Origin: Rhodothermales bacterium
GTDB taxonomy: Bacteria > Bacteroidota > Rhodothermia > Rhodothermales > Bin80
Direction of reading: 5' to 3'
Assembly: GCA_958296045.1 (NCBI GenBank)
Contig: CATQHT010000003.1
Location: 817,246 to 881,245, forward strand
Length of the DNA: 64,000 bases
Part shown: piece by piece, positions 2-19,420 of the stretch
Layout: every line of letters begins with the position of its first letter
Position numbering within the stretch: position 1 is the stretch's first letter
Notes under the pieces: generated by a model
The model's input: the letters and a program-made list of their open reading frames with translations, nothing else
The model's database searches: none
Told to the model about the DNA's origin: nothing
Position numbers and translations under genes: made by a program

Positions 2-1837
2 TTTGCTCAGTCGCTGAATGCAGGCCTGAATGTGAGCTATGATCTGGCGTCCAAGAGCAACATCAGCACCAGCTATTTCGCGAGCCACTACGATGCCTCG
101 CAGGACCGCACGTCTTACCAGCAACAGGTGCTAGGTTCAGGCATTACGGCGCTGTCCAACCTGACGAGCAACCAGAAAAATGAGAATCTCCGGCACACGG
201 CCAACCTGTATGCTAAGCTGAACTTCGGCACAGGCCATGACATGCGGATACGCGGTAATCTGTCTGCTGGCACATCTTCACTTGCACGCAGCTCTTTGGA
301 AAACACTACAGATCCCGCCACCGCCGCCCGTCTAGGTATTGTGTCCGACTTCGGTGAAGACACAGACAACCTGGACGGCAATCTGTCACTGGTATGGCGC
401 AAACGCCTAAGTGAGGATGGTCCCAGCCTAGTGGTTCAAGGGCGTGCCAACGCACGACGTGCGGATGCGCTTGGACAGCTCAACTCGTTGACCAGCCTGC
501 AGTCGTTGGGAGATCTTCAAACCGACGAGGAGTTGATCCAGCGGCAGGAGGAGTTAAGCAACCAGCTCGGGCATTCGCAGCGTCTGGCGTACACGCACCC
601 CTTACGCGGAGGGCTGACGCTTGAAGCCTTCGGCAGCCACTCCACCGCTGGTCGTAGCCGGGAGAAGCTTTTCGAAGATCAGGTTGATAGCGGCTGGGTC
701 CGCAATGACCACCTCAGTGACCATTTTGACCAGTCGGAGCGTAGCCTATCCACCGGAGTCGAGATGAGCTACAACCCGAAGGAGGAGGTCTGGATAACTA
801 GCGGCCTTACGCTGCAACAGTCAAGTATAACTGGGACGATTATGGGCCGGAGCGAGGATGTCTCCGGCTCATACCTGCATCTATTGCCATGGGTACGGTA
901 CAGGCACTCGCTGAGTGATTCTCGACGTATCACCCTTAGCTATCGCAGTCGCATGCGAACCCCATCTGTTACCGAGCTGCAGCCTTTCGAAGATAACTCC
1001 AATCCGGTGCGCATCTATGTGGGCAATCCAGACCTTCGGCCGGAAGCCACCCATTCTGTCAACGGCGCTTTCCATTTCTACGATCAGTTCTCTTTTGTCG
1101 GTTTCAATACGGGATTCACGCTCAGGCTCACCCAAAACGACATCGTCACTACGCGGACGGTCGATGCACAGCTGCGCCAGGTGCGCAGCCGTGTCAACGC
1201 GGATGCGCTGAGCTGGGCCGTCACGCACCGGATCGGATTCGAGACTCCGGTCCGGCCACTTGGCATCGCAATCGACTTGACCAACAGCGTTAACTACCAA
1301 ACCGGATCAGAATTCATCAATCAGGCCGAGAACACCAACCGTCTGCTGCGAAACTCCGTTAGCCTACGTGTACGAAACAGGACGCAGGATTTGGTCGAGG
1401 CCCATGCCAAGATGACCGTCACCTATAACAGCAATCAGTACTCGCTCAACCGGGAGGCGAATCAGCAGTACGTCAATAGCACTATTGATGGAGGGCTGTC
1501 CTGGCATGTGTCGGACGTGTTTTCTTTGGAATCCGACTTGGTGTACCGGATCTTTGATAAGGATGCATTCAGCAGCCAGGCGGTTTCCAGGGATTTTGGC
1601 CGCCAGGAAAACATCTTTTTGTTGAATCTTTCTGCTTCTCACCTAGTGCTCAAGGAGCGCGGGGAGATCCGCCTTGAAGTTCGCGATGTTTTCAACCAGA
1701 ATACAGGCGTAACCTACAACAACGCACCGACGTATGTACAGGCGGAGCGCGTGATTGCTATGGGTCGTTACGTAATGCTGCGATTCATCTATCGTCCGCG
1801 CGGCAAGGCCAAAGGGGGCTTCCTGTTCGGATTCTAG
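2..1837 (+). CDS. Outer-membrane beta-barrel / TonB-dependent receptor, 3' part
   Basis: The reading frame is open from the first bases of the window, so the N-terminus (signal peptide and plug) lies outside. What remains, about 610 residues, is a run of amphipathic strands with aromatic residues at strand ends, alternating polar loops, and a terminal Phe, as expected for a barrel inserted by the BAM machinery. The stretch around residues 310-350 (RSRMRTPSVTELQPF, then GNPDLRPEATHSVNGAF) resembles the conserved late-barrel region of TonB-dependent receptors of the Bacteroidota OMP_b-brl_3 type. Likely role: uptake of a siderophore, glycan or peptide across the outer membrane; the substrate cannot be told. 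The stop codon directly abuts a tRNA gene on the other strand. Confidence 0.8.
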   Translation, partial: FAQSLNAGLNVSYDLASKSNISTSYFASHYDASQDRTSYQQQVLGSGITALSNLTSNQKNENLRHTANLYAKLNFGTGHDMRIRGNLSAGTSSLARSSLENTTDPATAARLGIVSDFGEDTDNLDGNLSLVWRKRLSEDGPSLVVQGRANARRADALGQLNSLTSLQSLGDLQTDEELIQRQEELSNQLGHSQRLAYTHPLRGGLTLEAFGSHSTAGRSREKLFEDQVDSGWVRNDHLSDHFDQSERSLSTGVEMSYNPKEEVWITSGLTLQQSSITGTIMGRSEDVSGSYLHLLPWVRYRHSLSDSRRITLSYRSRMRTPSVTELQPFEDNSNPVRIYVGNPDLRPEATHSVNGAFHFYDQFSFVGFNTGFTLRLTQNDIVTTRTVDAQLRQVRSRVNADALSWAVTHRIGFETPVRPLGIAIDLTNSVNYQTGSEFINQAENTNRLLRNSVSLRVRNRTQDLVEAHAKMTVTYNSNQYSLNREANQQYVNSTIDGGLSWHVSDVFSLESDLVYRIFDKDAFSSQAVSRDFGRQENIFLLNLSASHLVLKERGEIRLEVRDVFNQNTGVTYNNAPTYVQAERVIAMGRYVMLRFIYRPRGKAKGGFLFGF

Positions 1838-1922
1838 TACCGGGAGCGGGACTCGAACCCGCACGGCCGCTTGGGCCAACGGATTTTAAGTCCGTTGCGT
1901 CTACCTATTCCGCCATCCCGGT
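1838..1922 (-). tRNA. tRNA-Leu (anticodon UAA)
   Basis: Read on the minus strand, an 85-nt gene folds as a class II tRNA. The 7-bp acceptor stem is ACCGGGA/TCCCGGT with discriminator A at 1838. The anticodon loop is CTTAAAA (anticodon TAA), the variable arm is long, and the T-arm contains GTTCGAGTC. CCA is not encoded. It lies tail-to-tail directly after the receptor gene stop (1837), with no spacer. Confidence 0.95.
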
Positions 1923-1932
1923 CGGCGCTCTT

Positions 1933-2739
1933 GTGAACGTGAACAGGGAGGGACCCGTTCCTGCAGCCCGTGGCGCTTCCGTCAAAGCCCTGTGCGGCTT
2001 GGCTACTAGGGCGGCTGAGAATTCCTTAACACCCTACTCTGGCCAGCCTCGGGGTGTTGCGCTCCTCCTATCAAGCGGCCATTGGGTGCTCGGGGCACGT
2101 ATTGAGAGTGCCTCGTATTCGCTTACCATGCCGGCGGTGTCGTCAGCGGTAGCGGCAGTCGCAGCCGCTGGTCACCGCGACATCGTGGCGGTGGCCTTCA
2201 GCAACGAAGTGCGGGCTGATGATGCCGCCTATCTGGAGGCGCTTGTCCCGGGGCTGCAGCGGCGAACATCCCGGCTTTTGGCGTACGCCAGCCCGCTTCC
2301 AGAGCTCACGAGCCAACTCAGGTCTGAACCGTGCACGCCTGGACGGCTGGCGCCCTCAACAGGTATCATGCTGGCCCGCGCGGCAGCGCGCCACAGTCAG
2401 GCCCCTTATTCCCGGTTCCCTGTCGGCTGCGTCGTCAGCACGCGATCCGGTCGCCTTGTAGCCGGTGTCAACGTGGAACACCCAGACTGGACGCGAACTA
2501 TCTGCGCGGAGCGTGCTGCCATTTGCATCGCTATATCAAAGGGATTGTCGGATCTGAGTGAATTCTTCGTTAGCTGCGTTTCTGACGAACGTGCCTGGCC
2601 ATGCGGAGCCTGTCTGCAACTTTTGGCCGAACAAGCTGCAGGGGCGACGGTATGGCTCGACCGTGGGGAAGAACAACCTAGCCGATGGTCCGTGTCAACG
2701 CTCCTCCCGAGGGCCTTCACGCAAGAGGGGCTCTCCTAG
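1933..2739 (+). CDS. Cytidine deaminase, two-domain, with degenerate N-terminal half
   Basis: Hydrolytic deamination of cytidine/deoxycytidine in pyrimidine salvage. The C-terminal half (from about residue 140) has the whole catalytic site of the tetrameric-type enzyme: APYSRFPVG, the CAER box (Cys191, catalytic Glu193), and PCGAC (zinc ligands Cys224 and Cys227). The N-terminal half (about 17-120) repeats the fold pattern (TPYSGQPRGVALL) but lacks Cys/Glu in the equivalent place, so it is probably a structural pseudo-domain. E. coli Cdd is also a duplicated fold, but there the N-terminal domain is the active one, so the order is reversed here. The start is uncertain: GTG at 1933 has no convincing ribosome site and lies just past the tRNA; a GGAGGG-like stretch near 1947 could serve a later start. 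Confidence 0.8.
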   Translation: MNVNREGPVPAARGASVKALCGLATRAAENSLTPYSGQPRGVALLLSSGHWVLGARIESASYSLTMPAVSSAVAAVAAAGHRDIVAVAFSNEVRADDAAYLEALVPGLQRRTSRLLAYASPLPELTSQLRSEPCTPGRLAPSTGIMLARAAARHSQAPYSRFPVGCVVSTRSGRLVAGVNVEHPDWTRTICAERAAICIAISKGLSDLSEFFVSCVSDERAWPCGACLQLLAEQAAGATVWLDRGEEQPSRWSVSTLLPRAFTQEGLS

Positions 2740-3071
2740 CGCCCAATGACTCTTAGTCCTGATCCCAAGCCCCTACCCTAATCCGGGCATCGAACATCTA
2801 AATCAGACCTGCAGCACTTGGGTAGTCATTTGGCTACATTCCCGAACGCGTGCAGTTGAGTCTGGGATACGCTTCGAACTAGGAATGTGCTAGCCGGTAT
2901 ATATGCGATGGCGCGGCGCCCCATATGAAGGGCGCCCCTGAGCACTAGATCATAGCATTGGATGAGGCTGTTCGCATGCCAACGAACTTTGGCGCTGGAC
3001 CAACGCCGCTGCATTCTGCCTACCCTTGCGTGTGAACTATGATTCTCAATCACCATCCGTTGATGTGACCC
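2740..3071. other. Intergenic region with one strong hairpin
   Basis: No convincing coding sequence is seen in these 332 bases. The only structure noticed is a 7-bp perfect GC hairpin at 2915-2936 (GGCGCCC / GGGCGCC, 8-nt loop) without a following T-run. It could be a weak terminator or a leader structure for the downstream protease gene. Confidence 0.5.
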
Positions 3072-4769
3072 ATGAAAACCGCTTCTGTACTTACCATCAT
3101 GGTTGTGTGCACGCTGGCGCACGCCGTAAGCGCGCAAGAGAAGATCAAGACGTGGATTTTCCTCCAAGACAAGCTTACTGCCGCAGGCAAGACCACTCAA
3201 GTGGAGTCTAGCCATTTGAGTGCGGACGCATTGGAGCGGCGCAGCCGGCGTGGCAGGCCTGTTGCACCAGTACATGATGCGCCCATCTCGCCGCTGTACC
3301 TAAATGCATTGGCCGCCGAAGGCATCGAAGTCGTTCACCACAGCAGATGGCTTAACGCCGTCACGGCCTACTTGGGCACAGATGAGATTGATGCTGTGCA
3401 GCAGCTGCCATTTGTGCGCAAGACCCAGCCTGTAGCTCGGCTTTCTGCACATGATGTCAAGCCCATACTGATGCCGCAGGTCCTTGCTCAACCCCAGTCA
3501 CGACGGCTGCATTGTGGGCCCTCCTGCACTCAGCTACGATTGGTCAATGCGATCGACGTCATGGATAACGGCATCTACGGCCAAGGGATCAAGGTGGGCT
3601 TTGTCGACACGCGTTTTGACTACAATGGTGTACAATTGGGGCATCCCGCCACGGAACACCTAGCGAACGCAGATCGCGTGAAGTTCATGAACTTCACCGC
3701 CGATGACCCTGGCGTGGGCAGCTCACAGGATTTCAGCTTTCATGGCCTCAATACCACTACGGTAACATTCGGTGCTGCTCCGCATGAGCTTTACGGCCCG
3801 TGTTATGGCGCCGACACGGTATATGCAGCGCAGACGGAGTGGGCCCCTCTTGAGCGCAACGTGGAAGAAGACAACTTTGTCGCCGGCGTTGAATGGATGG
3901 AAGCAAACGGCGTGGACGTAATTAACTCCTCGCTTGGCTACGACACGTTTGACTCGGGAGAACAACGCAACTATACCCAGGCCGATATGGATGGTGACAC
4001 GGGTATCACCACCATCGCGTTCGACATGGCGGCCGAACGTGGTGTCGTACCCGTCGCATCGGCTGGCAACTCCGGCAATAATACTAGCTGGCGCATTATC
4101 AGCACGCCAGCAGATGGGGACTCTGTCATCGCCGCCGGGGGCACGAATTCCACTGGGGTTCATTGGTCTTCTAGCAGCCACGGCAATACCGCAGATGGCC
4201 GCATCAAGCCAGACGTTTCTGCCCAAGGGGCTGGCGTCCGTGTAGGATATTCCAACGGCGGGTATGGCCACGCCAATGGTACCTCCTTTTCTGCGCCGAT
4301 GATAACTGGCATCGTGTGCCAGATATTGCAGGTCAACCCGGATCTCAACCCGAAAGAGGTCTGGGAAGTCCTGACCAATACAGCCAGTCAGGCCACCAGC
4401 CCTGACTCGCTCTTGGGATGGGGCATCGCAAATGCTGGCTTGGCGGTGGATTCTGCGCGGGCACGAATTCCGGTCAGCGTTACGCCAGAGGCGCCGCTTC
4501 CAGGGTCCTTTGTTGTTCGTTCCCCGTACCCGAACCCGTTTCATTCCGAGGCACATCTGGAGCTGGACCTCGCTCAGCCTTCCGCTTCGGTACGGGTCAT
4601 TCTGCGCAACCTTCTCGGCCAGCGGATTCGCGTTCCATTTGCTGGTCCGCTGGGCGCTGGCACGCATACGATCAGCGTTTCAGCTGACGGCCTGCCCGCT
4701 GGCGTATACACCTACGTTGTGGAATCGGACGGCCGCACACATACCGGACTGATGGTACTGGTGCGCTAA
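3072..4769 (+). CDS. Secreted S8 (subtilisin-like) serine peptidase with T9SS sorting domain
   Basis: An N-terminal signal peptide (hydrophobic residues 4-20, ending HAVSAQ) is followed by a propeptide-like region (25-130). The subtilase catalytic triad is complete: Asp179 in VGFVDT, His224 in FHGLNTTT, Ser405 in GTSFSAP, with the oxyanion Asn in ASAGNSGN. The last ~85 residues form a type A type IX secretion sorting domain, with SPYPNPF near residue 482, then a beta-rich tail ending in VYTYVVESDGRTHTGLMVLVR. The protein is therefore expected to cross the outer membrane and be anchored or released extracellularly, acting as a degradative peptidase. The ATG at 3072 is chosen because it gives a clean signal peptide. 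Its family supports a Bacteroidota-type host. Confidence 0.93.
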   Translation: MKTASVLTIMVVCTLAHAVSAQEKIKTWIFLQDKLTAAGKTTQVESSHLSADALERRSRRGRPVAPVHDAPISPLYLNALAAEGIEVVHHSRWLNAVTAYLGTDEIDAVQQLPFVRKTQPVARLSAHDVKPILMPQVLAQPQSRRLHCGPSCTQLRLVNAIDVMDNGIYGQGIKVGFVDTRFDYNGVQLGHPATEHLANADRVKFMNFTADDPGVGSSQDFSFHGLNTTTVTFGAAPHELYGPCYGADTVYAAQTEWAPLERNVEEDNFVAGVEWMEANGVDVINSSLGYDTFDSGEQRNYTQADMDGDTGITTIAFDMAAERGVVPVASAGNSGNNTSWRIISTPADGDSVIAAGGTNSTGVHWSSSSHGNTADGRIKPDVSAQGAGVRVGYSNGGYGHANGTSFSAPMITGIVCQILQVNPDLNPKEVWEVLTNTASQATSPDSLLGWGIANAGLAVDSARARIPVSVTPEAPLPGSFVVRSPYPNPFHSEAHLELDLAQPSASVRVILRNLLGQRIRVPFAGPLGAGTHTISVSADGLPAGVYTYVVESDGRTHTGLMVLVR

Positions 4770-5192
4770 CCGCCGCGCCGGTGCTTGCGCTGTTGATTCC
4801 TTCGTTGATTTAGTCTGGGGAAGCACCCCGCGGGTGCGATCAGCATTTTGCCAAGTATTACTGCCCTGCTCGGAGGAATCTTGGGGTCCGCGTGGCCTAA
4901 GACGCCGGGAAGGGGGCAAGAGCCCGCTTGCCTCTTGGCCACCTATCTCACTTTGTTCCTTCGGGAGAAAGGCGCGTCCGAATCGTCAATCGAGATCGCC
5001 GGGATCGTCGGGATTGCACGAATCCGAGTTAGGATTGAGTGTTCGCTGACGAGATGGGACCGCAATGTAGGCACCCCCTGACAGTAGAATGCACCTTACC
5101 ATAGACTATGTTGGTCCGAATGAGAACATGCACGCTCACATTGTAGACGAATGGCGGGTGGTGGAGCGTTTCCAGAGCCCCCCGGCCCGCCC
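4770..5192. other. Intergenic region at the left edge of the accessory island
   Basis: About 420 bases without a supportable gene. A hairpin at 4823-4837 (GCACCC, CGC, GGGTGC) follows the protease gene and may end its transcript, though no T-run follows. I see no direct repeat or integrase that would mark an attachment site. The promoter of the methyltransferase cassette should lie in the right half. Confidence 0.4.
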
Positions 5193-6317
5193 ATGAATCC
5201 AATCTGTGATCCCACAGCGAATGGCAATGCTGCCCCCAGTCTGAGAGTCAGCGTATTCGACTTCTTTTCCGGCTGCGGTGGAGCAAGCTGCGGTTTCCAG
5301 AAAGCTGGAATGGAGGTGGTGTTCGCCCTCGATTGGGACGCCGACGCAGCAAGGACCTTCAAGCACAACTTTCCGTCCGCTACCTTCGAGCCCAAGGATA
5401 TTCGGCTGGTGGAGGAGGACTCGGTCCAAAAGCTCGTGGCTGCGCAGCGGCCGCAGCCTGTCCTCTTCTGCGGGTGCGCCCCCTGCCAGCCGTTCACAAA
5501 GCAGAACACCACGCGCCCAAACCCTCACGAAGATGACCGGGTACCGCTGCTTCTCGAATTCCTACGTTTCATTCAAAGGTGCAAGCCTGACATCGTATTC
5601 GTGGAGAATGTCCCCGGTATACAGGATTTCAGCCCGCATTCCGAACCCCTCAGCAAGTTTCTTCGGGGGTTGGAGGAGGCTGGCTATGACTGCTCCGACC
5701 GATCGCGCGCTTCAGTGCTCCTGAAGCGGTATGGTGTACCGCAGGGCCGTCGCAGATTTCTCCTTCTTGCCAGTCGCCATGGACCAGTGGAACTCCCTCC
5801 CGCAACCCATGGACCTGGAACTAAAAAACCCAAATTCGCTACAGTGCGAGACTGTATTAGCGATCTTCCTGCAATTCGTGCGGGCGAAACCCACCCCGAG
5901 GACCCCAATCACCGCGCCGCCCGATTGTCTTCCCTCAATTTGACGCGGATCCGTGCGACTCCCGAAGGAGGCGGCAACCGGGATTGGCCGGAGCACCTTC
6001 GGCTTAGGTGCCACAGAGAGACACCGGGATTCACTGATGTCTACGGTCGCATGTCGTGGGATCGGCCTGCTTCGGGACTTACGACGCGGTGTATTAGCTA
6101 TTCCAATGGCCGGTTCGGACATCCCGAGCAGCATCGTGCGATCAGCGTGCGAGAAGCCGCGTGTCTTCAGACCTTCCCGAAGGATTTCGAGTTTTTTGGC
6201 AGCTTGAACTCGATGGCCAGGCAGATCGGAAACGCCGTTCCGGTCAAACTGGCAACCCTCTTTGGACATCATATCCAGCAACATCTGGCCGACGCCGGCT
6301 GGAGGCCACAGCTATGA
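5193..6317 (+). CDS. DNA (cytosine-5-) methyltransferase
   Basis: Transfers methyl from S-adenosylmethionine to C5 of cytosine in a target site. The canonical C5-MTase motifs appear in order: motif I FDFFSGCGGASCGF (22-35), motif IV CAPCQPF with nucleophile Cys98, motif VI FVENVPG, motif VIII QGRRRF, and motif X SMARQIGNAVP near the C-terminus. The length (374 aa) fits a complete single-chain enzyme. ATG 5193 is preferred over an upstream in-frame start at 5151, because the extra 14 residues (Pro/Gly rich) precede the conserved fold. Its stop overlaps the next gene's start by 4 bases (ATGA), so it is translationally coupled to the GHKL protein. Its partners suggest a restriction/defence role rather than a housekeeping or orphan Dcm role. 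Confidence 0.95.
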   Translation: MNPICDPTANGNAAPSLRVSVFDFFSGCGGASCGFQKAGMEVVFALDWDADAARTFKHNFPSATFEPKDIRLVEEDSVQKLVAAQRPQPVLFCGCAPCQPFTKQNTTRPNPHEDDRVPLLLEFLRFIQRCKPDIVFVENVPGIQDFSPHSEPLSKFLRGLEEAGYDCSDRSRASVLLKRYGVPQGRRRFLLLASRHGPVELPPATHGPGTKKPKFATVRDCISDLPAIRAGETHPEDPNHRAARLSSLNLTRIRATPEGGGNRDWPEHLRLRCHRETPGFTDVYGRMSWDRPASGLTTRCISYSNGRFGHPEQHRAISVREAACLQTFPKDFEFFGSLNSMARQIGNAVPVKLATLFGHHIQQHLADAGWRPQL

Positions 6318-9283
6318 AAGTAAGCTTCAAGGCCCGGGCCAGGACGCTGGACATGCTTGGAAGACAGCAGATCGCCGGCATCCCCACGGCTATTAGTGAG
6401 CTGTTCAAAAACGCGCACGACGCTCACGCCATGCGAGTGGAGGTCGACTACTACCGCAGCGACGGGTTGTTTGTGCTCCGGGACGACGGGATTGGGATGG
6501 ATACGCAGGAATTTGTTGACCGATGGCTCACCATCGCAACGGAGACCAGCATGAAGCGCAAGCGCGTGGAATCTCGGCGCACGAAATCGGCCAGGCAGGC
6601 GCGGCCTATCTTAGGAGAAAAGGGCATCGGTCGTCTCGCGATCGCGACCATTGCTCCTCAGGTGCTCGTCCTTACTCGGGCCCTTCGCAACGGCGTACGG
6701 TCCGACTTGACGGCCGCGTTTTTTAACTGGCGCCTCTTCGAGTGTCCAGGACTCAATCTACAGGATATTCAGATCCCACTGCGCACCTTTCCAGGGGGTA
6801 CCATGCCAGACGGTGGAGATGTCGCTGACATCGTCGGCGCCTTTCGCAGCGGAAGCGCTCATCTCCAGGAGCATTTCGATGAGAAGGACTGGAAGCGGGT
6901 CGAGGCCGACCTCGCTAAGTTTGTGTTCAATCCCTGCGAAATAGCCTCGCACCTTGGTGAGCCGACGCTCCTCGGCGAGGGCCACGGTACACATTTCTAC
7001 CTTCTCCCCGTGTCTTCAGACTTGGAGTATGACATCGACGGAGGCCGCGAGGCCAAAGTAGCGCCTCCGCTGCAGAAAGCGTTACTAGGGTTCACCACGC
7101 CGTCGTTTGGGGGTGGTGGAGATCCGGTCATTCACACTGCCTTTCGAGACCACCGAACGGGTGGAAGCTGCGCGGACATCATCGGTGAGAACGAGTTCTT
7201 CACTCGCTACGACTATGACAACGCGGATCACCAGATATCGGGACATTTTGACAAGTACGGTCAATTTAAGGGCAGCATATCCGTATACGGCGAGATTGAG
7301 TCCGACCACGTAATTAACTGGACCGGGGGAAAAGGGCGGCCGACGGATTGTGGACCATTCCATATCCGCTTCGCCGCGGTCGAGGGCGCTTCAAGGAATT
7401 CGACGCTGCCGCCCGCCGAGCATGCTCGCATGCTTGAGAAGACGAAGAGGCTTGGGGGTCTGTACATTTATCGGGACGGAGTGCGCCTTCAACCTTACGG
7501 GAACACGGACTATGACTGGCTGGAAATCGAACTCCGCCGAACAAAGAGCGCTGCGTACTACTATTTCTCTTATCGGCAAATGTTCGGATTCGTCGAAGTT
7601 GACTCCGAAAACAACAAACATCTAAGCGAGAAGGCGGGCCGCGAGGGTTTCCGTGAGAACAAGGCCTATCGTGATCTGCGAGGTATCCTGAAGAATTTTC
7701 TCATCCAAGTAGCCGCCGACTTTTTCCGCGACGAGGGAGTTTACGGCGAGCGGTTTACGAGAGGCAAACGCGAACTGAGTGAGAACGAACGATACCGGCG
7801 GGCGAGGGCTAAGAAGGTTACCGCCAAGCGCAACAAGTTCAGAAAGGACCTGACTGACTTTTTCGATCGAATGGAAAATGAGGAGCCACTCAAGCGGGTC
7901 ATGGCGTTGGGCCTGAAAACCGAGGCGCGTGTGATTGAGGCGGTCCGTGATGCGGATCGCGGAAGAGCCGCCAAGCGCATCATCGAGATCGAAAATGACG
8001 CAAGGAGTTCGCTCAGAGCGTTGGAAGCGGAGTACCGTGTCACGAAGCCGCGGATAGGCATAAGCAAGTCGTTACAAAGGGAGTGGAGCGACTATCAGGA
8101 GGCGTTCGAGAATCTTCAATGTAACATAGGCGACATTCGTGATTCTATCGAGAGCGTCGTGACCAACGAGGCCAAGACGGCTGGCGTGGATGTGAATGTG
8201 AGGACCCGAATGAAAGCGGCTCTAGAAGACATCGCCCAATTGGCTAGGAGACAGACAAAGGAGGTAGGCGGAGTCATCAAGATAGCGGCCCAGAACATCG
8301 GACGCGATGCCCGTGAAGTAGTGACCGAGTGTAGACGGAATGTTGAGGACACGTTTCGTGACGTAATAGCCGAGTATGCTCGGCGTGACTTTTCGGACCT
8401 GAATGACGAGCGCCTGATAGCTGAGCGTTCTGAGTTGGAACAACCGCTCCGGGATGTTCTACAGACGGTCTTGCGGAAGCTCGAATCCGCTCAGTCACAG
8501 TTGGTGGTCATCGACTTGAAGCGCGAGTCCTCCATTGTTGATGAACTCGCAGCAGTTGAGCAGAGCAATATTGCGCTGAAGGAACAGGCATCCGCCGAAA
8601 ACCAGCTTGCCCAACTCGGTATGGCGATCGAAATCATTAGCCACGAGTTCGGTGCCGCCATCAAGTCTGTCCGGTTGGGGCTTCACAGCTTGAAGGCGTG
8701 GGCGGACGTTAACCCCAAACTGATGTCGCTCTATCAGACCATCCGTGGCAGCTTCGACCATCTCGATGGATACCTTACCCTCTTTACGCCACTCCAAAGG
8801 AGGCTCTACCGGAAGGCGGTTAACATTCGAGGCTGGGAAGTTCACGAATTCCTCACCAATCTTTTCGGCCAGCGCTTGGCCAGACACCATGTCACACTGG
8901 TCCGAACCGATGCCTTCGCTGCCGCCACGATGCGGGGCTACCCGTCATCCTACTACCCTGTGTTCATCAACCTCGTGGATAATGCCATATACTGGCTCTC
9001 GGGTCGAAATGAGCGTCTGGAACGGCGCATCCGGCTCGACGCGTCCGGGAATACGTTAAGCGTTTCGGATACGGGGCCGGGAGTCCATGCCCGGGATCTG
9101 GACGCGATCTTCGAAATGGGGTTCACCAGGAAGCCGGACGGTCGCGGCATGGGGCTGTATATCGCGAGACGTACGCTGCGCGAGGTTGGCTATGACCTGA
9201 TACTCGAGGACCAAGGGTCGGATTGGAGTACAACGTTCCTGATCAAGCCAATCAAGGACAAGAACAAGGAGGCCGATGCCTAA
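6314..9283 (+). CDS. Dual-GHKL ATPase: MORC/Hsp90-like N-terminus fused to a histidine-kinase-like C-terminus
   Basis: A 989-residue protein. The N-terminal GHKL ATPase has box N with Glu29, Asn33 and Asp36 (SELFKNAHDAHA), G1 DDGIGMD (57-63) and GEKGIGRLA, as in MORC, MutL and Hsp90 relatives. A long Arg/Lys/Glu-rich helical middle (about 490-750) follows. The C-terminal part looks like a sensor kinase: H-box-like IISHEFGAAI with His777, box N NLVDNAIYWL, VSDTGPGV, then GRGMGLYIARR. No membrane segment or classical sensor is seen, so it is likely cytoplasmic. It overlaps the methyltransferase by 4 bases and the receiver gene by 8. I infer a signalling-ATPase defence component; phosphotransfer from His777 to the next protein is plausible but unproven. 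An in-frame upstream start at 6161 lies deep inside the methyltransferase and is rejected. Confidence 0.88.
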   Translation: MKVSFKARARTLDMLGRQQIAGIPTAISELFKNAHDAHAMRVEVDYYRSDGLFVLRDDGIGMDTQEFVDRWLTIATETSMKRKRVESRRTKSARQARPILGEKGIGRLAIATIAPQVLVLTRALRNGVRSDLTAAFFNWRLFECPGLNLQDIQIPLRTFPGGTMPDGGDVADIVGAFRSGSAHLQEHFDEKDWKRVEADLAKFVFNPCEIASHLGEPTLLGEGHGTHFYLLPVSSDLEYDIDGGREAKVAPPLQKALLGFTTPSFGGGGDPVIHTAFRDHRTGGSCADIIGENEFFTRYDYDNADHQISGHFDKYGQFKGSISVYGEIESDHVINWTGGKGRPTDCGPFHIRFAAVEGASRNSTLPPAEHARMLEKTKRLGGLYIYRDGVRLQPYGNTDYDWLEIELRRTKSAAYYYFSYRQMFGFVEVDSENNKHLSEKAGREGFRENKAYRDLRGILKNFLIQVAADFFRDEGVYGERFTRGKRELSENERYRRARAKKVTAKRNKFRKDLTDFFDRMENEEPLKRVMALGLKTEARVIEAVRDADRGRAAKRIIEIENDARSSLRALEAEYRVTKPRIGISKSLQREWSDYQEAFENLQCNIGDIRDSIESVVTNEAKTAGVDVNVRTRMKAALEDIAQLARRQTKEVGGVIKIAAQNIGRDAREVVTECRRNVEDTFRDVIAEYARRDFSDLNDERLIAERSELEQPLRDVLQTVLRKLESAQSQLVVIDLKRESSIVDELAAVEQSNIALKEQASAENQLAQLGMAIEIISHEFGAAIKSVRLGLHSLKAWADVNPKLMSLYQTIRGSFDHLDGYLTLFTPLQRRLYRKAVNIRGWEVHEFLTNLFGQRLARHHVTLVRTDAFAAATMRGYPSSYYPVFINLVDNAIYWLSGRNERLERRIRLDASGNTLSVSDTGPGVHARDLDAIFEMGFTRKPDGRGMGLYIARRTLREVGYDLILEDQGSDWSTTFLIKPIKDKNKEADA

Positions 9284-10865
9284 CGATGCATACAGGCAAC
9301 GTTGTCGACAGATCGCCCAGGATTTCCTCCTAACAGCGGTGGTCGTTGACGACGAACCATACGTACCGGGGCCGCGCGTCCCCGACCGTCTGATTGAACC
9401 CGATCGGGGTGCCGCGAAGCGCGCGTTGCCATCCGTTGACCAGCCTCCCTCATCCACCCGGCCCCTCCATGTTGTCCCGGTCACATGGTCTTTCGCAAAG
9501 AAAGGTATCGTTTGTGGTGTCTTATCGCCGCAGAGTCCGCAAGAAGATCTTAATACACTCGCTGAGGCCGTAGCTCGTGCAGACATCGTTATTCTCGACT
9601 GGCTGCTGGACAATGCGATCGGTACCACCGCGTTGCCGCTGCTGGAACAGATCCTCTCGAAGGACTCTCAGGACCGCCTACGCTTGATCGCGCTTTATAC
9701 CGGTGAACCCGGTCATGATGCCATTCGCGAAGCAATAGCGGAAAAGCTAAATGGCCTCGAATCACGCTCTCGCGCGGTGCCCGCTAGCGACAGCCACGGC
9801 CCGATCGAGTTCGGTGGCTGTAGGATCGTGGTGTACGCCAAGCAAGGCTCTCGTATTCCCGAATCAAGCGCCATGGTTAAGGAAAAAGACTTAGCCGATC
9901 GGCTCATCGACGACTTCGTCGACATGGTCGAGGGTCTACTGCCAAGCTTGGTACTAACGGCACTTACCGCCGTTAGGGAAAACGTATATCGGGTGCTGGG
10001 GCGCTTCGGGCGGGAACTCGATCCCGCGTTCCTAACACACCGCGCCTGTCTTCCCCAGCCGGCGGATTCCGAGCAGCATATCGGGGAACAGATTGCCAGC
10101 GAGTTGCATGGGATCATCGACGACGCCATCGGTAGGCAAAGTCCGGCAGGAATCGAGGCGATCAAGCAGTGGCTCAAGGGCCGATTCGGGGACGATCCGG
10201 TGAAATTTGGTGACAGCCAGGATAAGCAGATGTGTCAGACAGAGGTCGTCGAGATGTTGACCTGTGGAATCGAGGAGAGACCTGGTCCTCTCAAGGCAGG
10301 TGGTAAGGATTATGGCATCCTCTCCGCCGGGTTTTCGGGCAATACCCAGGCCGTCGGCGCCGAGGTTGACCGTCGTCTCGCGTCAACGATGAGCTTCCGC
10401 CAAGTTCTTACAAAAGCCCGAAGGCAGTTGTCGATGGGAACGGTGATCCGCCAGATCGGGAACGAGGGCACCATGCTTCTATGCGTCACACCGAAATGCG
10501 ATAGTATCCGTTTGGCCAAAGAGTCATCCTTTCTTTTCCTCCCGCTTGTGACGCCGAAGCAGAGAACGCCGCAGGTTGTGGTGCCAGTCAGCGACAACAA
10601 ACATGAACGCCTGACGATTTCCTTGAACCCGTCGAAGTGGTGTAATAAGACATTCACGCCCGACCCTGAGCGGGCGTGTGTGCTCACCATCCAAAACTGC
10701 GGTGACCCAGCACGTCACGTGTTTAAGGCTGTCGACAACGTAAAATACGAGTGGGTAGGGGAGCTGAAATCGGATGCCGCACAATCCATAGCACAGGAAA
10801 TAGCGAAAAGACTGTCCCGAATTCCGCTAAACAGGTCGGAATGGCTCAGGCGCCAGGAAAGGTAG
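9276..10865 (+). CDS. Receiver-domain protein with long uncharacterised C-terminal region
   Basis: The N-terminus resembles a response-regulator receiver: acidic pocket VVVDDEP (Asp25, Asp26), probable phospho-acceptor Asp108 in DIVILDWLLD, a Thr in LIALYTGEPG and a Lys in VVYAKQG. The acceptor comes about 55 residues later than usual because of an insertion after the first strand (Pro/Arg rich, 30-85). The remaining ~330 residues match no output domain I recognise; they contain a helical segment around 215-300 and a beta-rich tail with two Cys-containing motifs (CVTPKCDS, LTIQNCGD). It overlaps the dual-GHKL gene by 8 bases, so the two proteins are made together. I infer that it receives a phosphoryl group from, or otherwise partners, that kinase-like protein. 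Confidence 0.78.
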   Translation: MPNDAYRQRCRQIAQDFLLTAVVVDDEPYVPGPRVPDRLIEPDRGAAKRALPSVDQPPSSTRPLHVVPVTWSFAKKGIVCGVLSPQSPQEDLNTLAEAVARADIVILDWLLDNAIGTTALPLLEQILSKDSQDRLRLIALYTGEPGHDAIREAIAEKLNGLESRSRAVPASDSHGPIEFGGCRIVVYAKQGSRIPESSAMVKEKDLADRLIDDFVDMVEGLLPSLVLTALTAVRENVYRVLGRFGRELDPAFLTHRACLPQPADSEQHIGEQIASELHGIIDDAIGRQSPAGIEAIKQWLKGRFGDDPVKFGDSQDKQMCQTEVVEMLTCGIEERPGPLKAGGKDYGILSAGFSGNTQAVGAEVDRRLASTMSFRQVLTKARRQLSMGTVIRQIGNEGTMLLCVTPKCDSIRLAKESSFLFLPLVTPKQRTPQVVVPVSDNKHERLTISLNPSKWCNKTFTPDPERACVLTIQNCGDPARHVFKAVDNVKYEWVGELKSDAAQSIAQEIAKRLSRIPLNRSEWLRRQER

Positions 10866-11657: not shown

Positions 11658-13334
11658 TCAGTCCAACGAGGCGGCGAATTTGTAGCAGGTGCCACGTCCG
11701 GTGCCACGTCTTGTTACGACCTTAAGGGTCACGAGCTGGCGCAGCTCGCGCAAAGCAGCGTGGCGGTTGATCTGGAACAAGGTCTGGTAGTCGGCATTCT
11801 TGAGAGCGGGCTCGAAGCTGAAAAAAGTGCGTAAACGCGGAATCCGCATTTCGAGAAAACGGGCTTTCATCTCCAGCGCAGGGACGACAGCGTAGGTCGG
11901 GGGTGATCCTTCTTTGCTCGGATGCCGTTCCGCGATGCCCTTTTCGCAGAGGTCCTGCACCTGTTTGGCGGCCTCGCCCTCGCCGGTTCCGTTGACGATC
12001 TGGTAATCCCGAGCAGTGAAGCCGGCGAAACGCGCCAACAGCATCTTCCGCTGACCGCCCGAAATAGGGAGAGCGCCCAGCAGGTGGTTCCACCCAGGCC
12101 TCATGGCTCCAGAGACAGGCTCATTGAAGAGGGTCATACGAAACAAGCCGTCGCAGGACTCGATGTCGGGTTCCCTCAGCAGGCTTGCGGCCATTTCACG
12201 GAACACCCGCGCAACGCCTTCTCCTTCATCCCGCATGATTTTTGCGTCGGTAAGAACTCGAACCAGCATCGGGTTTCGGGTAGCATGGGCGCGCTGGCCT
12301 TCTCGCAGAACCTTGACTGTGATAGGCGGCAGCAGTTCTCCAGGGCTCGTTACCTCCAGTCGGTTATCGAAGAACCAGATCTCCGTTTCTCGCCCCTGCA
12401 TCTCATAGTTGCGGTGTGCTACCGCGTTGATAAGCGCCTCTTGCCAGGCGAATTCGGGATACTCAGGGATATCCTCGAAAAATAGGTCACGAAGCCGTTC
12501 GGATACCTGGACTTGACTCCGCGCCAAGTCACGGACTTCCATGATCGCACGGGCCAGCGGTGGATCGGCGCGCCCGATCTGAGTCACATTGCGGTGGCGC
12601 CCGTATTCGATCTGGGTGCCAGCTACTCGAAATACGCGGAGACCCGCCCGCGGATGCCAATGTAGCGCGGGACGGCGAGCAAAGAGCAAGAGTCCAGCAT
12701 TGGTGACGCGCCAATCCCGGCCGTCCTTCTCTACCAAGCCGTAGTACTGAAGCGCTTCTATGACGGCGCGCCCTCCTACTGGCGCCCCCTTTAGAAAGGA
12801 TCCGGCCAAGTCCAAGTCCAAGTGATCCACGGTGGCATTCGGGCGGAACCGCTGCTCGTATCCAACGCGCCGATACGCCTGCTTTCGGTGATTGATCACC
12901 TCTTGGGGTTCCCGGATGATCTGGGCTCCGACGCGATAGGGAAACCCGTCTCCGATGATCATCACGGCTTCGGGTGCGATGCGAACTTGAAATGCAAGAA
13001 CCTTATAACTGTCAAGAGTAAACGTCGCAATCTGGTAGTCCGGGATGGGGTCAAGACGGCGGCGGGGTACTTTAAAGAATGCTTCCACCTCGTGCTCCCC
13101 GTAGCCGTGGCCGGATGGCGTGCCGTCGTCGTCGACTCCAACTAGCAGGAGACCGCCATCGGCGTTGGCAAAGGCGGCTACGACATCAGCGATTTTATCT
13201 CTCAGCGTGCGACGCCCCAACGTCTTGGGCGGAACTGAGCCGCGATCCCAAGCCGACTTGAATTCAACAAACTGGCCTTCGCCACGCGACAGTATAATGC
13301 GCAGCTCGGAATCGGAAAGGAAGGGAGCCGTCAC
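11658..13334 (-). CDS. AlbA_2 (Schlafen-like) DNA-binding domain protein with RecG-type C-terminal ATPase fold
   Basis: A 558-residue protein. The N-terminus has the AlbA_2 signature: EFVEFKSAW-like FVEFKSAW (about 22-29) and FANADGGLLLVGVDDDG (about 54-70). The middle has the HATPase_c_4 pattern of 'RecG C-terminal-like' proteins, EALINAVAHRNYEMQGRETEIWFFDNRLEVTSPG. The C-terminal ~150 residues look like winged-helix segments. Such proteins are usually annotated as transcriptional regulators or ATP-binding proteins and are common in defence islands. Its start lies 4 bases after the stop of the methyltransferase pseudogene on the same strand, so it is the last gene of that cassette. The frame is intact, unlike its neighbour. 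Confidence 0.87.
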   Translation of the reverse strand: MTAPFLSDSELRIILSRGEGQFVEFKSAWDRGSVPPKTLGRRTLRDKIADVVAAFANADGGLLLVGVDDDGTPSGHGYGEHEVEAFFKVPRRRLDPIPDYQIATFTLDSYKVLAFQVRIAPEAVMIIGDGFPYRVGAQIIREPQEVINHRKQAYRRVGYEQRFRPNATVDHLDLDLAGSFLKGAPVGGRAVIEALQYYGLVEKDGRDWRVTNAGLLLFARRPALHWHPRAGLRVFRVAGTQIEYGRHRNVTQIGRADPPLARAIMEVRDLARSQVQVSERLRDLFFEDIPEYPEFAWQEALINAVAHRNYEMQGRETEIWFFDNRLEVTSPGELLPPITVKVLREGQRAHATRNPMLVRVLTDAKIMRDEGEGVARVFREMAASLLREPDIESCDGLFRMTLFNEPVSGAMRPGWNHLLGALPISGGQRKMLLARFAGFTARDYQIVNGTGEGEAAKQVQDLCEKGIAERHPSKEGSPPTYAVVPALEMKARFLEMRIPRLRTFFSFEPALKNADYQTLFQINRHAALRELRQLVTLKVVTRRGTGRGTCYKFAASLD

Positions 13335-13338
13335 GAGA

Positions 13339-16300
13339 TCACTTAACAGTTGTCTGGGCCTGCCGCGCCTCGCGCGCTTGTTCCTTTTCCGCCCGCGAGG
13401 AATGCAGATCCTTCCGTCGCTTACCGTCGAAGGGGGAGTTCTCTGATGCCACGAAGTCGGTCCGATCTGCTATGCTCCCGCCGCCTTGGAAACCGTAGAA
13501 CCGCGGGAATTTCCTGCGTTGCCTTGGTTCTCTTCGCTCCTGGCCCCGGTCCTTGCCCCACCTAGCGTTGGGCTTGAATCGCAAGATACTCGCACCGACA
13601 CTTCCACCCTCACGCAATTCCGCGCGCATGAAGGGACGGATATTCAGTTGCACGCCATCATTAATGTCAGGCGTCCAGCTCATTGGCTGGGCGCAAAACG
13701 ACTTCCAGCGAACGAAGAGGTCGCACGGAAGCTGACCTTCAAGGATGCGTTCCAGCTGCCGCTGAGCATCCAGAGCGTGCACGAGGCAGCTGTAAGCTCC
13801 TGCCAAACCTTCGCGCTGTTCCGCGCGCCGCCGCCGCTCGATCCAGTCTTTCAAGTAGGCATACGTCAGCCATTTCAGCGTGCACTGGCCAGTTTTGCTG
13901 CATCCAGCAAGGCGATGGTAACTGTCGATGGAATGGAAACCGTCGGGACGACCATCCCAGATGTACCAGATGAAGGGACGATTGTGGAAGAGTTTACAGT
14001 GCTTAGCGAAGAGAGGATCCTGTAACCAGACTTCCAGCGAGTTGGGCACCTGCTTTTCCTGAGCGGTGGCCGCGACCAGCCTCTGCTCAGTGTTGGCAGA
14101 CCACTCTTGCCCGTAGGCTCGGATGAGAAGGCTGCGCCAACGGTCGGCGACGTTGATTTTGCCGCGGACGGGAGAGAGGCAAACGATGCCGTCGGTGTCG
14201 ACGAGATTCCGGTTTATGGCGTAGCCCTCCACGAGGGTGTATTGCTCAGAGGTAAGGCGCATCTCGGGATCGAATTCGGCAGACCAACGGAATCCTAGGG
14301 GCGGGGCGACGGCGACTTGGAAGACGGAGTGGTCGAACCGAGTGGGACCATGTACCGTGACCATCATTTCCTTGTCCCAGAGTACGCTCTGGCAGGAATC
14401 GCCGTGAAAGATCCATTGCGTTCGATCATCAGCGTTGGGCTTGGGAAGGCCATTGGGAAAGCATTCAGCAGCCACCTTGGTCCAATGCTCGAGGCCGAAG
14501 GACACTTTGACGAGCGTTACGTTCGAAGCCTTCAAATTGTGGTCGATTTCGAAAACGGCAGCGGCGTATTCGGGGGAAGAACAGAAGACCCATGCGGCAG
14601 CCAAGTGGTTCCCCGAAACAGGACCGAGGGCTGCCGGATTGCTATCAAACTTCTCTCCTACTATCGCGCAGGACGAGAAGCGCGCCCATCTGGAATATGG
14701 CGATTCTGTCACAATTCCAAAACACCCCGTAATTACGTACCGCTTGGCGGCCACTAGGTACAACATTCCGCTCGGGAGCTTCGGTGATTCCAATGTAGTG
14801 TATGACACGTTCGCGTCCCCCCGCCCCCAAATCTACCGTGTTTTTTGACCGTGCTCTACTGAAATACCCCTGTCTTACCATAAGGTAAGATTTCTCAATG
14901 GGGGATATAGTCGGCGGATGCGATTCCGGGGTGGCCATGAGCCAACTGTTGCAACAACTTTCTGTCTCCCACGGGCCGGAGCAGAACGGCCGAATCTGGA
15001 TTCCTCACCCGCTCTTCCTGCCTCGACTTTGTTACGGCGACAGGTCCTTCCAGCAATACCGTCTTCTGCGCCCCCCAAGCCAGGCGCGGCCCCCTTGGAG
15101 CGGAAACATCCATGCCCACCATTTCCCAGGATCGTACAGGCCCGTTAGCTGAGAGTATTACAAGCGCGGCGAACGCCTTGGCCACCTGACTATCCGCAAT
15201 TGCGTGTTCCCCCAGCCGCGTCACCAAATTCCATGTCTGTCTTATCAGCAGCCGCTTCCAAAGCTTCCGGTACGTGGACAGGAATAGGCAGTCTTGTGGC
15301 GTCACCACTGCCTGCGTGCCGTAATCACCGAGCCACTGAAGTATCCTGGATGCGAAGAGCATCGCGATGCCATACTTCGCATCGCCGTGATGCCTTGCGG
15401 CGCAGCTGCGTATCCCAGAGTTCTGTTTCCCCGGCACTACCAAAAGTACGTTGATGACCACTAGCGTGTAATGGTCCGAGATGATCCTGGCCGCACGCGC
15501 CATCCCCCATAAATATTCCCACCCCCTACTGCCACGTGCCCAACCGTGCCTCGTCCGCATCGTTTTCAGCCTCTTGTCGTACGAACCGCAGGTACGTGAT
15601 GTCATCTTCATTGCCTGCATTAGTCGGATTCGCCACCGTAGCGGTTCCTTGTCCGTGGCCGATGCCGCAAGATCGGGACCATTCGCCAATACCTTGCCAG
15701 CCCTCCACGCACCGATGGAGTTGTGCAGGAAGACCTGGGCGCATCGCTCAGTGAAACGCTGCGTTACCGCAGAAAGCTCGCCAGCACCGATCTTTGTGCC
15801 GCTACTGTTAGTGCGGTCCTTTTCGTCCGCCTGCCGGAACTGATAGGTCCAGCCGAAGAAGTCACCGGCGTTGAAGACGGCTTTAGGCAATAATTCCATA
15901 AGTTACTCCAGTTTCTGGTGGGTCTCGGGCGGGAGCGTAAGCTAGAGCACCGAGTCGCTGGAATTAAATATCCAAAGCGGCATTTCTTGCGCCCACTCGC
16001 CTGCCGGTTGCCATGCATCTCCCCTGGATACTCGGGCCAGGGTCCTGCAGTCTTCAATAGAGACAGGGGCTTCGTGCTCTGGGCCTATGAGCCACTCGTT
16101 TTCAGCCAAGAAACGTACGAATAGCACCCGATGCAAGTGTTTGAAGGCGACCTCTTGGGTGAGGCGATTTATCGGCTGCGTTTCATCTACCAGATCTCGT
16201 CGGTCGCCTGCCAGGCGTCTACGGTTGCATAGGACCTCAGGCAGGCTTGCTGCTCGACCAACATGGTGTTGAACGGTCTGCCACGGTCCACGGCGAGAAA

Positions 16301-16690
16301 TTCAAGTGCCCAGCGGTCACCAGATTCGGCCTTGCATCGGGCTTCAAGGATGGTGGACTCAAGCTTGGCACGGCAGGTAGGCGGACGAGACGAAATCAAG
16401 GCGTGTATAGTCTGATCCTCTGAGAAGTTATTCACAAGCTCCTTCCTCAGGCCGCGCGTATGCAGGTCCCCGCTAACGTCTGCCGAGATGATGCGCAGGT
16501 GTTCGCGGCTGGGCACAACAGCGTGTGCCCGATGCATAAAGAGTTTGCACACTGTGCGGCCATCTTGGGCCAAGGCGGCTCGGGAGGCGCAGACCTGGAC
16601 CGGGCCCACCGCGATCGCGACACTGTAGGCTAAAGCATGGTCATCCTGGCGCGAGCTGAAGCAACGAGTCGAAATGCAGCCGGTTGCCAA
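13339..16690 (-). pseudogene. Eco57I/PglX-like adenine-specific DNA methyltransferase (type IIG, BREX or DISARM-like), frameshifted
   Basis: Fragments of one large R-M methylase appear in order on the minus strand but in different frames. The N-terminal piece (16690-16187) ends ATVDAWQATDEIW. A shifted frame continues VDETQPINRLTQEVAFKHLHRVLFVRFLAENEWLI (to 15942). A middle piece (15899-14895) has FFGWTYQFRQADEKDR, then VTQRFTER, then VTPQDCLFLSTYRKLWKRLL, with the sequence between scrambled across frames. A long intact C-terminal piece (14808-13339, 489 aa) has RPFIWYIWDGRPDGF, QLPCDLFVRWKSF, SWTPDINDGVQLNIRPFM and ILRFKPNARWGKDRG. I could not find the SAM-binding (DPACGSG-like) or NPPY catalytic motif in any frame. 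The gene is therefore dead, although the C-terminal 489-aa frame could still be made. Its original ATG (16644) overlaps the upstream gene's stop but is followed by a stop after four codons. Confidence 0.82.
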
Positions 16691-17207
16691 CCATTCTGTT
16701 CACTGCGATATCGTGATAGCCCTCTGGGGGCAAGACGTGAGGAAGGCGAATGCGTTGTTTTGAGAGCCGCGGCGATACCTTCTCCCCAATGAGGAGATAG
16801 CGCATGGTTACGCTTGCAGAAGGTTGTACCTTGTTCTCGCAATGGATGCTACAGACTGTTCTCAGGTACTGCAGGTATGGCGGCGACCGATGGAGTTGCC
16901 GAAGCCCCTTGCTTCCTTCGGCGATCGTCTTCTTGAGCTCTACGAACACGGCCACATCTGCATTGGCTTTCTGAAACAGGATCAGATAGTCACACCTAGA
17001 CTTGAATTCGCCACGGATGCCACTCAACTCACCGATTTTGTCAATGTTGACCACCGTGACATCTCCTGGAACGCCAATCATGTCCACCTGCATGACCACC
17101 CTTCGCTTCTGTTTCTCTCTAAGTACGACGGTTCCTTCGTTCACGGGCACCTTGGCCTTTTCCTCTAAGACGCATCGCATCCTTTTGGCTAATGACGACG
17201 TACTCAC
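16641..17207 (-). CDS. Putative PD-(D/E)XK-like nuclease partner of an ABC-type ATPase
   Basis: A 188-residue protein starting at a GTG that overlaps the ATPase stop (GTGA), so the two are translationally coupled. Upstream residues in this frame lie inside the ATPase gene and are not part of it. The core reads RCDYLILFQKANADVAVFVELKK: Asp73 ... Glu90-Leu-Lys92, the spacing and strand pattern of the PD-(D/E)XK nuclease fold (beta, D, beta, ExK). The downstream helix with QLHRSPPYLQYLRTVC is consistent. I do not recognise a named family. The assignment is motif-based; a non-catalytic protein with a chance ELK is possible. Its own stop overlaps the start of the dead methyltransferase by ATGA. 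Confidence 0.65.
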   Translation of the reverse strand: MSTSSLAKRMRCVLEEKAKVPVNEGTVVLREKQKRRVVMQVDMIGVPGDVTVVNIDKIGELSGIRGEFKSRCDYLILFQKANADVAVFVELKKTIAEGSKGLRQLHRSPPYLQYLRTVCSIHCENKVQPSASVTMRYLLIGEKVSPRLSKQRIRLPHVLPPEGYHDIAVNRMVGNRLHFDSLLQLAPG

Positions 17208-18625: not shown

Positions 18626-18685
18626 GGCTTCTCAAATGACCAAGTACCCCCGCGAGCCCGCGCCAAGTAAGGCTGCAAGGGCATA

Positions 18686-18708
18686 GTGTGCCAATAAGTT
18701 TGACACAC
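18686..18708. repeat. 23-bp palindrome upstream of the ATPase gene
   Basis: GTGTGCCAA, TAAGT, TTGACACAC: two 9-base arms with one mismatch around a 5-base centre. It sits 61 bases before the ATPase start and about 60-110 bases past the end of the IS3 relic. It could be an operator for the ATPase cassette or the outer terminal inverted repeat of the insertion sequence. No second copy was seen at the other side of the relic (19400-19948). Confidence 0.6.
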
Positions 18709-18769
18709 TCTTCGGAGTCAGCATAAGGTAGCAATTCGCGTTGGATTACGTTTGGGATTGCGGAAGGTT

Positions 18770-19420
18770 TGCAGCTGATGCCGGCGTGTCGTGGCATTCA
18801 GGGCACACGTTTGATTTATTGATCCAGACGGAATTGGGCGGCATTTTCGGCTGTGGGTGGACCGTTGGCAAATCGTTCGGGTGTATCGTCGTAGGCCTTG
18901 TCCAGCACGGCTTGTTGGACCGCTTTCATGGCCTTGGCAAGTCCGTGGTGAACGATAGCGCAGTGCATGAGCGCCAGCACGATATGGCAGTGGTCGTGAT
19001 TGTACCATTGGAAGACGCGGTCGGCCCATGATCGTGCGTCTTCGGGTGATCCGAAGCGTCGCGTGTATATGGGCCGCCACTTCAGGGTCTTGAATTGTGC
19101 TTCTGAAATGGGATTGTCGTTGGAGGTACACGGTCGTGTTAGGAAGCATTCGGCGCGCAGGTCGTTGAACAGCTGCGCGACGGGCTTCGAGGTCATGGGA
19201 CTTCCTCGATCGCTGTGGATGACCGGTTGTCTGGATTGAATGCCTTAGCAGTGGCAGGCGGTCTTGACCAAAGCATGTGCCAGATTGAGCGAATCGCTGT
19301 CGGCGAGTGTCTACCCCAGATGTATCGGCTGAAGATGTCCATAAAGGCGTAGCTCGCATAGATATAATAGTACGGACACGGCCAAGACGATGGGGTATCT
19401 TGCCGCTTCATCACCGGTCG
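18770..19420 (-). pseudogene. IS3-family transposase relic (rve/DDE integrase C-terminal part)
   Basis: The minus strand carries the last part of a DDE transposase. FMDIFSRYIWG lies near 19340 (with the catalytic region upstream lost or shifted), then PCTSNDNPISEAQFKTLKWRPIYTRRF (third catalytic acid in SEAQFK), WYNHDHCHIVLALM, and a DKAYDDTPERFANGPP tail. The parts fall in at least three frames. No intact orfA or first catalytic Asp region is visible, so the element is inactive and 5'-truncated. It marks past insertion at the right flank of the defence island. Confidence 0.85.

Follow-up and report, generated by a model that had tools for sequence, protein, structure and literature searches.

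The gene cassette described here lies in a window of 64,000 nucleotides from a Rhodothermales bacterium (phylum Bacteroidota; assembly GCA_958296045.1, contig CATQHT010000003.1, positions 817,246 to 881,245), and positions below are those of this window unless another locus is named. The cassette spans 5193-10865 and consists of three intact open reading frames (ORFs) on the plus strand: a Dcm-type C5-cytosine DNA methyltransferase (5193..6317, 374 amino acids), a paraMORC-type GHKL ATPase fused to a soluble histidine kinase of the HEF_HK type (6314..9283, 989 amino acids), and a Response_reg_2 receiver protein (9276..10865, 529 amino acids). The kinase gene starts inside the methylase stop codon, giving a 4-base overlap (ATGA, 6314-6317), and the kinase and receiver genes overlap by 8 bases (9276-9283). 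This gene order is far beyond chance, since it is found in most of 80 bacterial and archaeal loci, with identical 4- and 8-base overlaps in E. coli CE0026f and Pantoea. The 8-base overlap also occurs in Pseudoalteromonas and E. coli SE15. A promoter scan returned nothing above chance.

The methylase matches PF00145 (5e-53) and TIGR00675 and contains motifs I, IV, VI, VIII, and X; the motif sequences found are FxGCGG, PCQ, ENV, QGRRR, and GNAVP. An in-frame ATG at 5151 is an alternative start that would yield a protein of 388 amino acids. No recognizable nuclease domain was found in the cassette proteins with Pfam, PADLOC, NCBIfam, or a fold search of the PDB, and Pfam and PADLOC detected no helicase, RE-fold nuclease, or Z1 protein within the cassette. 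No Vsr gene lies beside it; elsewhere in the genome Vsr is matched only once, by a split copy located on a different contig. Adjoining this split copy is another C5 methylase, itself with a split match (G000:C1:536897-538538), and a further C5 methylase is found in the same genome at C3:2200747.

Domain architecture of the kinase and receiver

The kinase protein was delineated from Pfam matches, residue conservation, an AlphaFold2 (AF2) model, and Foldseek comparisons. It begins with a GHKL ATPase domain of the HATPase_c_3 type (residues 25-126, 6386..6691) containing invariant E29, N33, and D36, a DxGxG motif at 57-61, and the G101-K103-GIGR loop. This is followed by an S5/middle transducer-like domain (residues ~151-470, 6764..7723) with invariant R409, R421, K440, R443, and E444, and then by a long coiled-coil stalk (residues ~478-760, 7745..8593), seen as long helices over 478-760 in the AF2 model. 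The C-terminal portion comprises the HEF_HK dimerisation/phosphoacceptor domain (residues 767-833, 8612..8812), in which His777-Glu778 is invariant (67/67), and a HATPase_c kinase domain (residues 881-968, 8954..9217) with intact N- and G-boxes. The HATPase_c_3, HEF_HK, and HATPase_c matches all exceed the curated Pfam cut-offs. Across 67 kinases, E29, N33, D36, DxGxG, the GKGIGR loop, K440, H777, E778, N886, N890, and the G-boxes are invariant, while position 919 is D or N. The protein has no transmembrane segments (maximum 19-residue hydropathy 1.29). The AF2 model, with a mean predicted local distance difference test score (pLDDT) of 81, shows two halves, one GHKL and S5-like and the other a kinase, separated by a long coiled coil, and Foldseek matches it to Hsp90 over ~500 columns as well as to HK853-type kinases. 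Because the Foldseek output gives no query ranges, the assignment of an Hsp90-like N-half and an HK853-like C-half is based on alignment length and domain order; the S5-like domain presumably falls within the Hsp90 alignments.

The AF2 model of the receiver protein is of high confidence (pLDDT 90.9) and divides it into three domains: receiver (REC; 1-190), helical (200-375), and barrel (385-529). The REC domain (residues 17-191, 9324..9848) matches Response_reg_2 (PF19192, 4e-33, 115.6 bits) and contains D25/D26, the phospho-acceptor D108, T142, and K189. Of these, D25, D108, and K189 are invariant across 74 receivers, as is D103, and D26 and T142 are retained in 95%. Both GHKL modules are complete, and the chemistry of a double ATPase with a His-Asp relay appears to be preserved, since the required residues are conserved in kinases and receivers; the relay itself would then be expected to run. 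The all-helical middle domain (residues ~200-375, 9873..10400) has no Pfam model and contains an invariant D249 and highly conserved H255 and R256.

The C-terminal domain (residues 375-529, 10398..10862) is a predicted beta-barrel carrying the motif G388-T-V...C403-x4-C408-D409-x2-R412, in which G388, C403, and C408 are essentially invariant, as is W493, and D409 is kept in 95%. No Pfam or NCBIfam model matches this domain, and the same two libraries detect no DNA-binding output domain anywhere in the receiver. A pattern of the form G-x-[IVL]...[TN]-[PA]-x-C-D recurs, with variations, in the receivers of E. coli, Pantoea, Rhizobium, Flavobacteria, Campylobacter, Fusobacterium, Hymenobacter, Enterobacter mori, and Allorhizobium and in the G003 paralogue; every one of these retains Cys408-Asp409, while Cys403 is replaced in several. 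A search of 399 Pseudomonadota genomes for other architectures returned the domain only in receiver-type proteins.

The top PDB matches to the receiver model are MazF toxins (Foldseek probability 1.00, TM ~0.6 to target, E 0.009-0.015), and five MazF-family chains are among the top 20 matches, two of them at ranks 19-20 (probability 0.91-1.00, best E 0.009). Because a profile comparison with 12 PemK sequences gave no support for MazF/PemK membership, the likeness is one of fold only, and the C-terminal domain is predicted to have a MazF-like fold rather than to belong to the MazF family. A viral structure library returned only weak matches to the receiver domain. Three cysteines, C80 in REC strand 2 and C403 and C408 in the C-terminal domain, are invariant in 74/74 near receivers, C80 being absent in distant relatives; a metal or redox site built from the three across the domains is conceivable.

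The original prediction, made from the sequence alone, had described a complete C5 methylase, a 989-residue dual-GHKL protein, and a receiver protein, encoded by genes that overlap by 4 and 8 bases, all of which is borne out. Its choice of His777 and Asp108 as the phospho-residues agrees with their conservation (67/67 and 74/74, respectively), and the nuclease that it could not recognize was likewise absent from the Pfam, PADLOC, and NCBIfam matches. It had also suggested the long C-terminal region of the receiver as a possible effector. This region, now seen as a conserved, predicted barrel domain that was detected only in receiver-type proteins of the genomes searched and keeps its Cys-Asp motif, is the best candidate, because it is the sole unassigned output domain besides the helical middle.

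Co-conservation and genomic neighborhoods

Relatives were sought by scanning 84,980 genomes with the kinase alignment, and the best 80 loci were kept. These loci, which come from archaea as well as many bacterial phyla, are the nearest relatives of the cassette, and the proportions that follow therefore do not extend to the whole family. In 76/80 loci the kinase has a C5 methylase no more than 5 kb away, and the remaining four loci end at contig edges; the methylases of loci L046 and L047, which lie behind antisense ORFs, were detected by tblastn. Of the 76 methylases, 67 precede the kinase in the same orientation, seven are convergent and downstream, and two (L046 and L060) were scored by script as downstream on the same strand. 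Vsr is found in 44/80 loci. The kinase-receiver junction falls between a 28-base gap and a 26-base overlap in 71/73 loci, the commonest arrangement being an overlap of 8 bases. Evolutionary distances are correlated between kinase and receiver (rho 0.64) and between methylase and kinase (rho 0.40), and Mantel tests are positive for all three gene pairs, with 0/300 permutations reaching the observed value.

The methylase of locus L066 is 72-76% identical to those of L113 and L117, while the kinase is only 41% and the receiver 28% identical. This is the pattern expected after a methylase exchange, and it appears that divergent kinase/receiver pairs have traded methylases. The nearest relatives found for the window kinase are from metagenome-assembled genomes of Gemmatimonadota and Thermoanaerobaculia (~70% identity), which are closer than the kinases of its own family (~60-63%); this points to horizontal transfer, as judged from sequence identity. 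The family is widespread: it includes archaeal members, and a distant kinase relative, traced by a short stretch of matching DNA in its gene, was detected in 212/5,426 complete E. coli genomes. In phage genomes the receiver had no match, and the kinase matched two short records without annotation.

The trio of E. coli CE0026f is flanked on both sides by mobile-element genes, and no nuclease gene is annotated in the 18-kb stretch. Because this trio stands between insertion sequences without an added nuclease gene, the three genes may suffice as a unit. The neighbors of the trio in E. coli SE15 include ArdC, a MobH relaxase, and a restriction gene of the phosphorothioation-dependent kind. A shorter variant, in which dcm is convergent, is found on conjugative plasmids of Campylobacter. 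In Enterobacter mori, a kinase-receiver pair occurs for which ~11 kb of sequence yielded no C5 methylase. On an Allorhizobium plasmid (L028 6796-11482), a GHKL-kinase and a receiver-like protein are accompanied by an N6/N4-type methylase in place of the C5 enzyme. On a plasmid of Hymenobacter sp. NBH84 (L179 215-11469), Vsr, Dcm, kinase, and receiver-like genes are directly upstream of DUF3883, ATP-binding, Z1, and PD-(D/E)XK genes. Locus L029 contains, besides the main trio, a second pair at 655-4052, located ~5 kb upstream on that contig: a shorter GHKL-kinase (738 amino acids) and a receiver-like protein (393 amino acids) that retains the Cys-Asp motif.

Downstream of the window cassette, a defense island occupies 11658-19359 on the minus strand. 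It includes an AlbA_2/Schlafen-HATPase_c_4 protein (11658-13334), PglX fragments in separate reading frames (13339-14808, 14895-15899, and 16190-16690), a PD-T4-4_B/PDC-M47B-like piece (16641-17318), and a PD-T4-4_A-like ATPase (17204-18625). Judging from the PglX fragments, this neighborhood is visibly decayed.

The tight junctions and co-conservation in near relatives agree with the earlier proposal that the three genes act as one unit. The further expectation that homologues would be accompanied by the methylase stands for the near relatives, where the four loci lacking one are cut off by contig ends, and fails for distant cousins such as the Enterobacter mori pair and the Allorhizobium set with its N6/N4-type enzyme. 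The original prediction had also called the mixture of methylase, kinase, and receiver unusual. That statement is out of date, because the association was described by Bellieny-Rabelo et al. in 2021, with 91.6% linkage of histidine kinase-like and response regulator-like genes in 644 regions (PMC8011034).

Proposed function and alternative explanations

The reading that we favor, tentatively and with slightly less than even confidence, is that the cassette is a methylation-keyed DNA-defense unit in which a clamp-kinase signals through His777 and Asp108 to an effector receiver. We infer what is sensed, the phosphotransfer, the effector role of the C-terminal domain, and the anti-phage outcome as follows. 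The Dcm enzyme, judging from its family, would methylate a short site in the host genome. The kinase would be a soluble dimer, its GHKL-S5 module acting as an ATP-driven clamp like Hsp90, MutL, or MORC, and the clamp and coiled coil together may detect DNA that is foreign or unmethylated, or some phage process acting on it. Clamp movement transmitted through the coiled coil would turn on the C-terminal kinase, leading to phosphorylation of His777 and then of Asp108. Phosphorylation of the receiver could release or assemble the C-terminal beta-barrel with its Cys-Asp motif, and the barrel might act on nucleic acid or on an essential cell process, so that the invader or the cell is stopped. Vsr, present in about half of the relatives and absent here, would repair T:G mismatches arising from deamination of the methylated site.

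In favor of the defense reading are the co-conservation of the genes, the minimal trio of CE0026f, the invariant active sites, the structural models, and the receiver-only barrel domain, together with the settings in which the genes are found: PD-T4-4-like genes, PglX fragments, and an AlbA_2/Schlafen ATPase nearby in the window, conjugative plasmids in Campylobacter, and a relaxase and ArdC in SE15. Several points weigh against it. The open-licence papers searched contained no functional test or demonstration for HEF_HK/Response_reg_2 systems. The effector step is argued from position, conservation, and a fold likeness at E ~0.01, with no sequence-profile support, and methylation status as the sensed signal is likewise something we infer. 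The distant cousins, including Enterobacter mori, have a kinase-receiver pair without an adjoining methylase. The Hymenobacter set, because it lies directly upstream of DUF3883, ATP-binding, Z1, and PD-(D/E)XK genes, might be the regulator of a separate restriction machine. It is possible, if doubtful, that the cassette confers a restriction-like immunity without a restriction nuclease, in which a MORC/Hsp90-type clamp reads methylation and a His-Asp relay leads to the C-terminal domain of the receiver as a novel effector of MazF fold whose Cys-Asp is catalytic, so that signaling replaces direct cleavage at the recognized site.

An explanation closer to a Type II-like restriction-modification (R-M) system would have the GHKL-S5 protein as an ATP-driven restriction engine, a hidden nuclease site in the receiver or coiled coil cutting unmethylated DNA, and phosphotransfer serving as a safety lock. 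Kinase residues 10-122 match the BbrUII/HgiDII restriction-enzyme family (NCBIfam NF050001, 1.8e-21), the E. coli homologue does so as well (2.2e-18), and the PADLOC REase_II model gives a weaker match to residues 15-116 (3.9e-6). These matches appear to tie the ATPase half to restriction. The published links between MORC/paraMORC ATPases and R-M genes (PMC2292703) and the near-obligatory methylase beside the kinase also speak for this explanation. However, the restriction-enzyme match is confined to the GHKL domain and reaches 76 bits against a cut-off of 550, and the searches described above found neither a nuclease motif nor a nuclease fold in any cassette protein. The L066 comparison also argues against a shared target specificity, since kinase and receiver do not visibly track the methylase target when closely similar methylases are paired with divergent partners; this argument is not decisive, because unrelated enzymes can share a site. 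On balance we consider such a nuclease complex unlikely, if by no means negligible.

Distinctly less probable is a purely regulatory role, in which a cytoplasmic two-component system senses a nucleotide or stress state and adjusts the expression or activity of the methylase or R-M system. This role was proposed by Bellieny-Rabelo et al. (PMC8011034) and is consistent with the intact canonical residues of kinase and receiver, with the methylase gene lying in the same operon, and with the position of the Hymenobacter set upstream of other R-M-like genes. It would leave the elaborate Hsp90-like ATPase half unexplained, however, and the methylase shares a transcript with its supposed regulators, or in 7/76 loci is convergent and downstream of them. 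The trio of CE0026f stands alone without other R-M genes, and the receiver has no DNA-binding domain in Pfam or NCBIfam, because of which a classical transcriptional two-component system is disfavored. Scarcely credible is the idea that an orphan methylase and a two-component pair with no relation to it ended up side by side by chance in a defense island undergoing decay. The downstream decay, with its PglX fragments, and the lower co-variation of methylase with kinase than of receiver with kinase would fit such a history. Against it are the intact catalytic residues and overlapping reading frames, and for close relatives it is refuted by the co-location in 76/80 loci and the Mantel tests.

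If the defense reading is true, methylation-based discrimination between self and non-self DNA would work through two-component signaling, and the family would reveal, in bacteria, which signal a MORC-like ATPase detects. The proposal lends itself to ordinary phage assays, given the compact E. coli cassettes and the Cys-Asp domain.

Comparison with known systems

Judged as a Type II R-M system, the cassette has the DNA methyltransferase, and a recognizable cognate restriction endonuclease was not found in the searches of its proteins. Judged as a canonical two-component system, it has conserved phospho-His kinase and Asp receiver sites, and Pfam and NCBIfam identified no DNA-binding output domain. 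The C-terminal domain of the receiver is predicted to form an SH3-like barrel that may resemble that of MazF/PemK toxins, from which it differs in lacking sequence-profile similarity and in its invariant motif, Cys-x4-Cys-Asp. Detocs, as generally understood, is an anti-phage two-component phosphorelay with a nucleosidase effector and no methylase, whereas the receiver described here has no nucleosidase domain in Pfam or NCBIfam. The BbrUII/HgiDII Type II enzymes have a related N-terminal GHKL ATPase domain, the match extending over ~110 residues, but the C-terminal part of the protein is here a kinase module without a recognizable nuclease. In Shedu type I-D, the paraMORC3-like VcSduA similarly begins with a GHKL ATPase, proposed to control an anti-phage effector; there the output is a fused PD-(D/E)XK nuclease, and here it is a separate receiver accompanied by a methylase (PMC12137116).

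A link between MORC/paraMORC ATPases and R-M genes was described by Iyer, Abhiman and Aravind in 2008 (PMC2292703). The operons that they describe share with the cassette a GHKL + S5-type ATPase beside a DNA methylase, and some relatives of the cassette share their Vsr; a histidine-kinase module and receiver are found here instead of a helicase, Z1 protein, and RE-fold nuclease. The Hymenobacter arrangement joins the HEF_HK/Response_reg_2 family to this MORC/Z1 type of restriction operon.

The closest comparison is with the systems of Bellieny-Rabelo et al., who defined HEF_HK (PF19191) and Response_reg_2 (PF19192) as two-component-like, related the kinase to paraMORC ATPases, and reported C5 methylases as a dominant neighbor and an enrichment of R-M genes around the family (PMC8011034). 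The cassette has the same HATPase_c_3, HEF_HK, and HATPase_c kinase, the same adjoining receiver family, and the same upstream C5 methylase, and differs in having no Vsr. It is thus an intact member of this known methylase-linked, paraMORC-type family. No other known domains were reported there for the receivers, in which a conserved C-terminal barrel is now delineated; this domain, the co-conservation of the three genes in near relatives, the conservation of their active sites, the lack of a recognizable nuclease, the CE0026f trio without an added nuclease gene, and the apparent swapping of methylases are what the present analysis adds.

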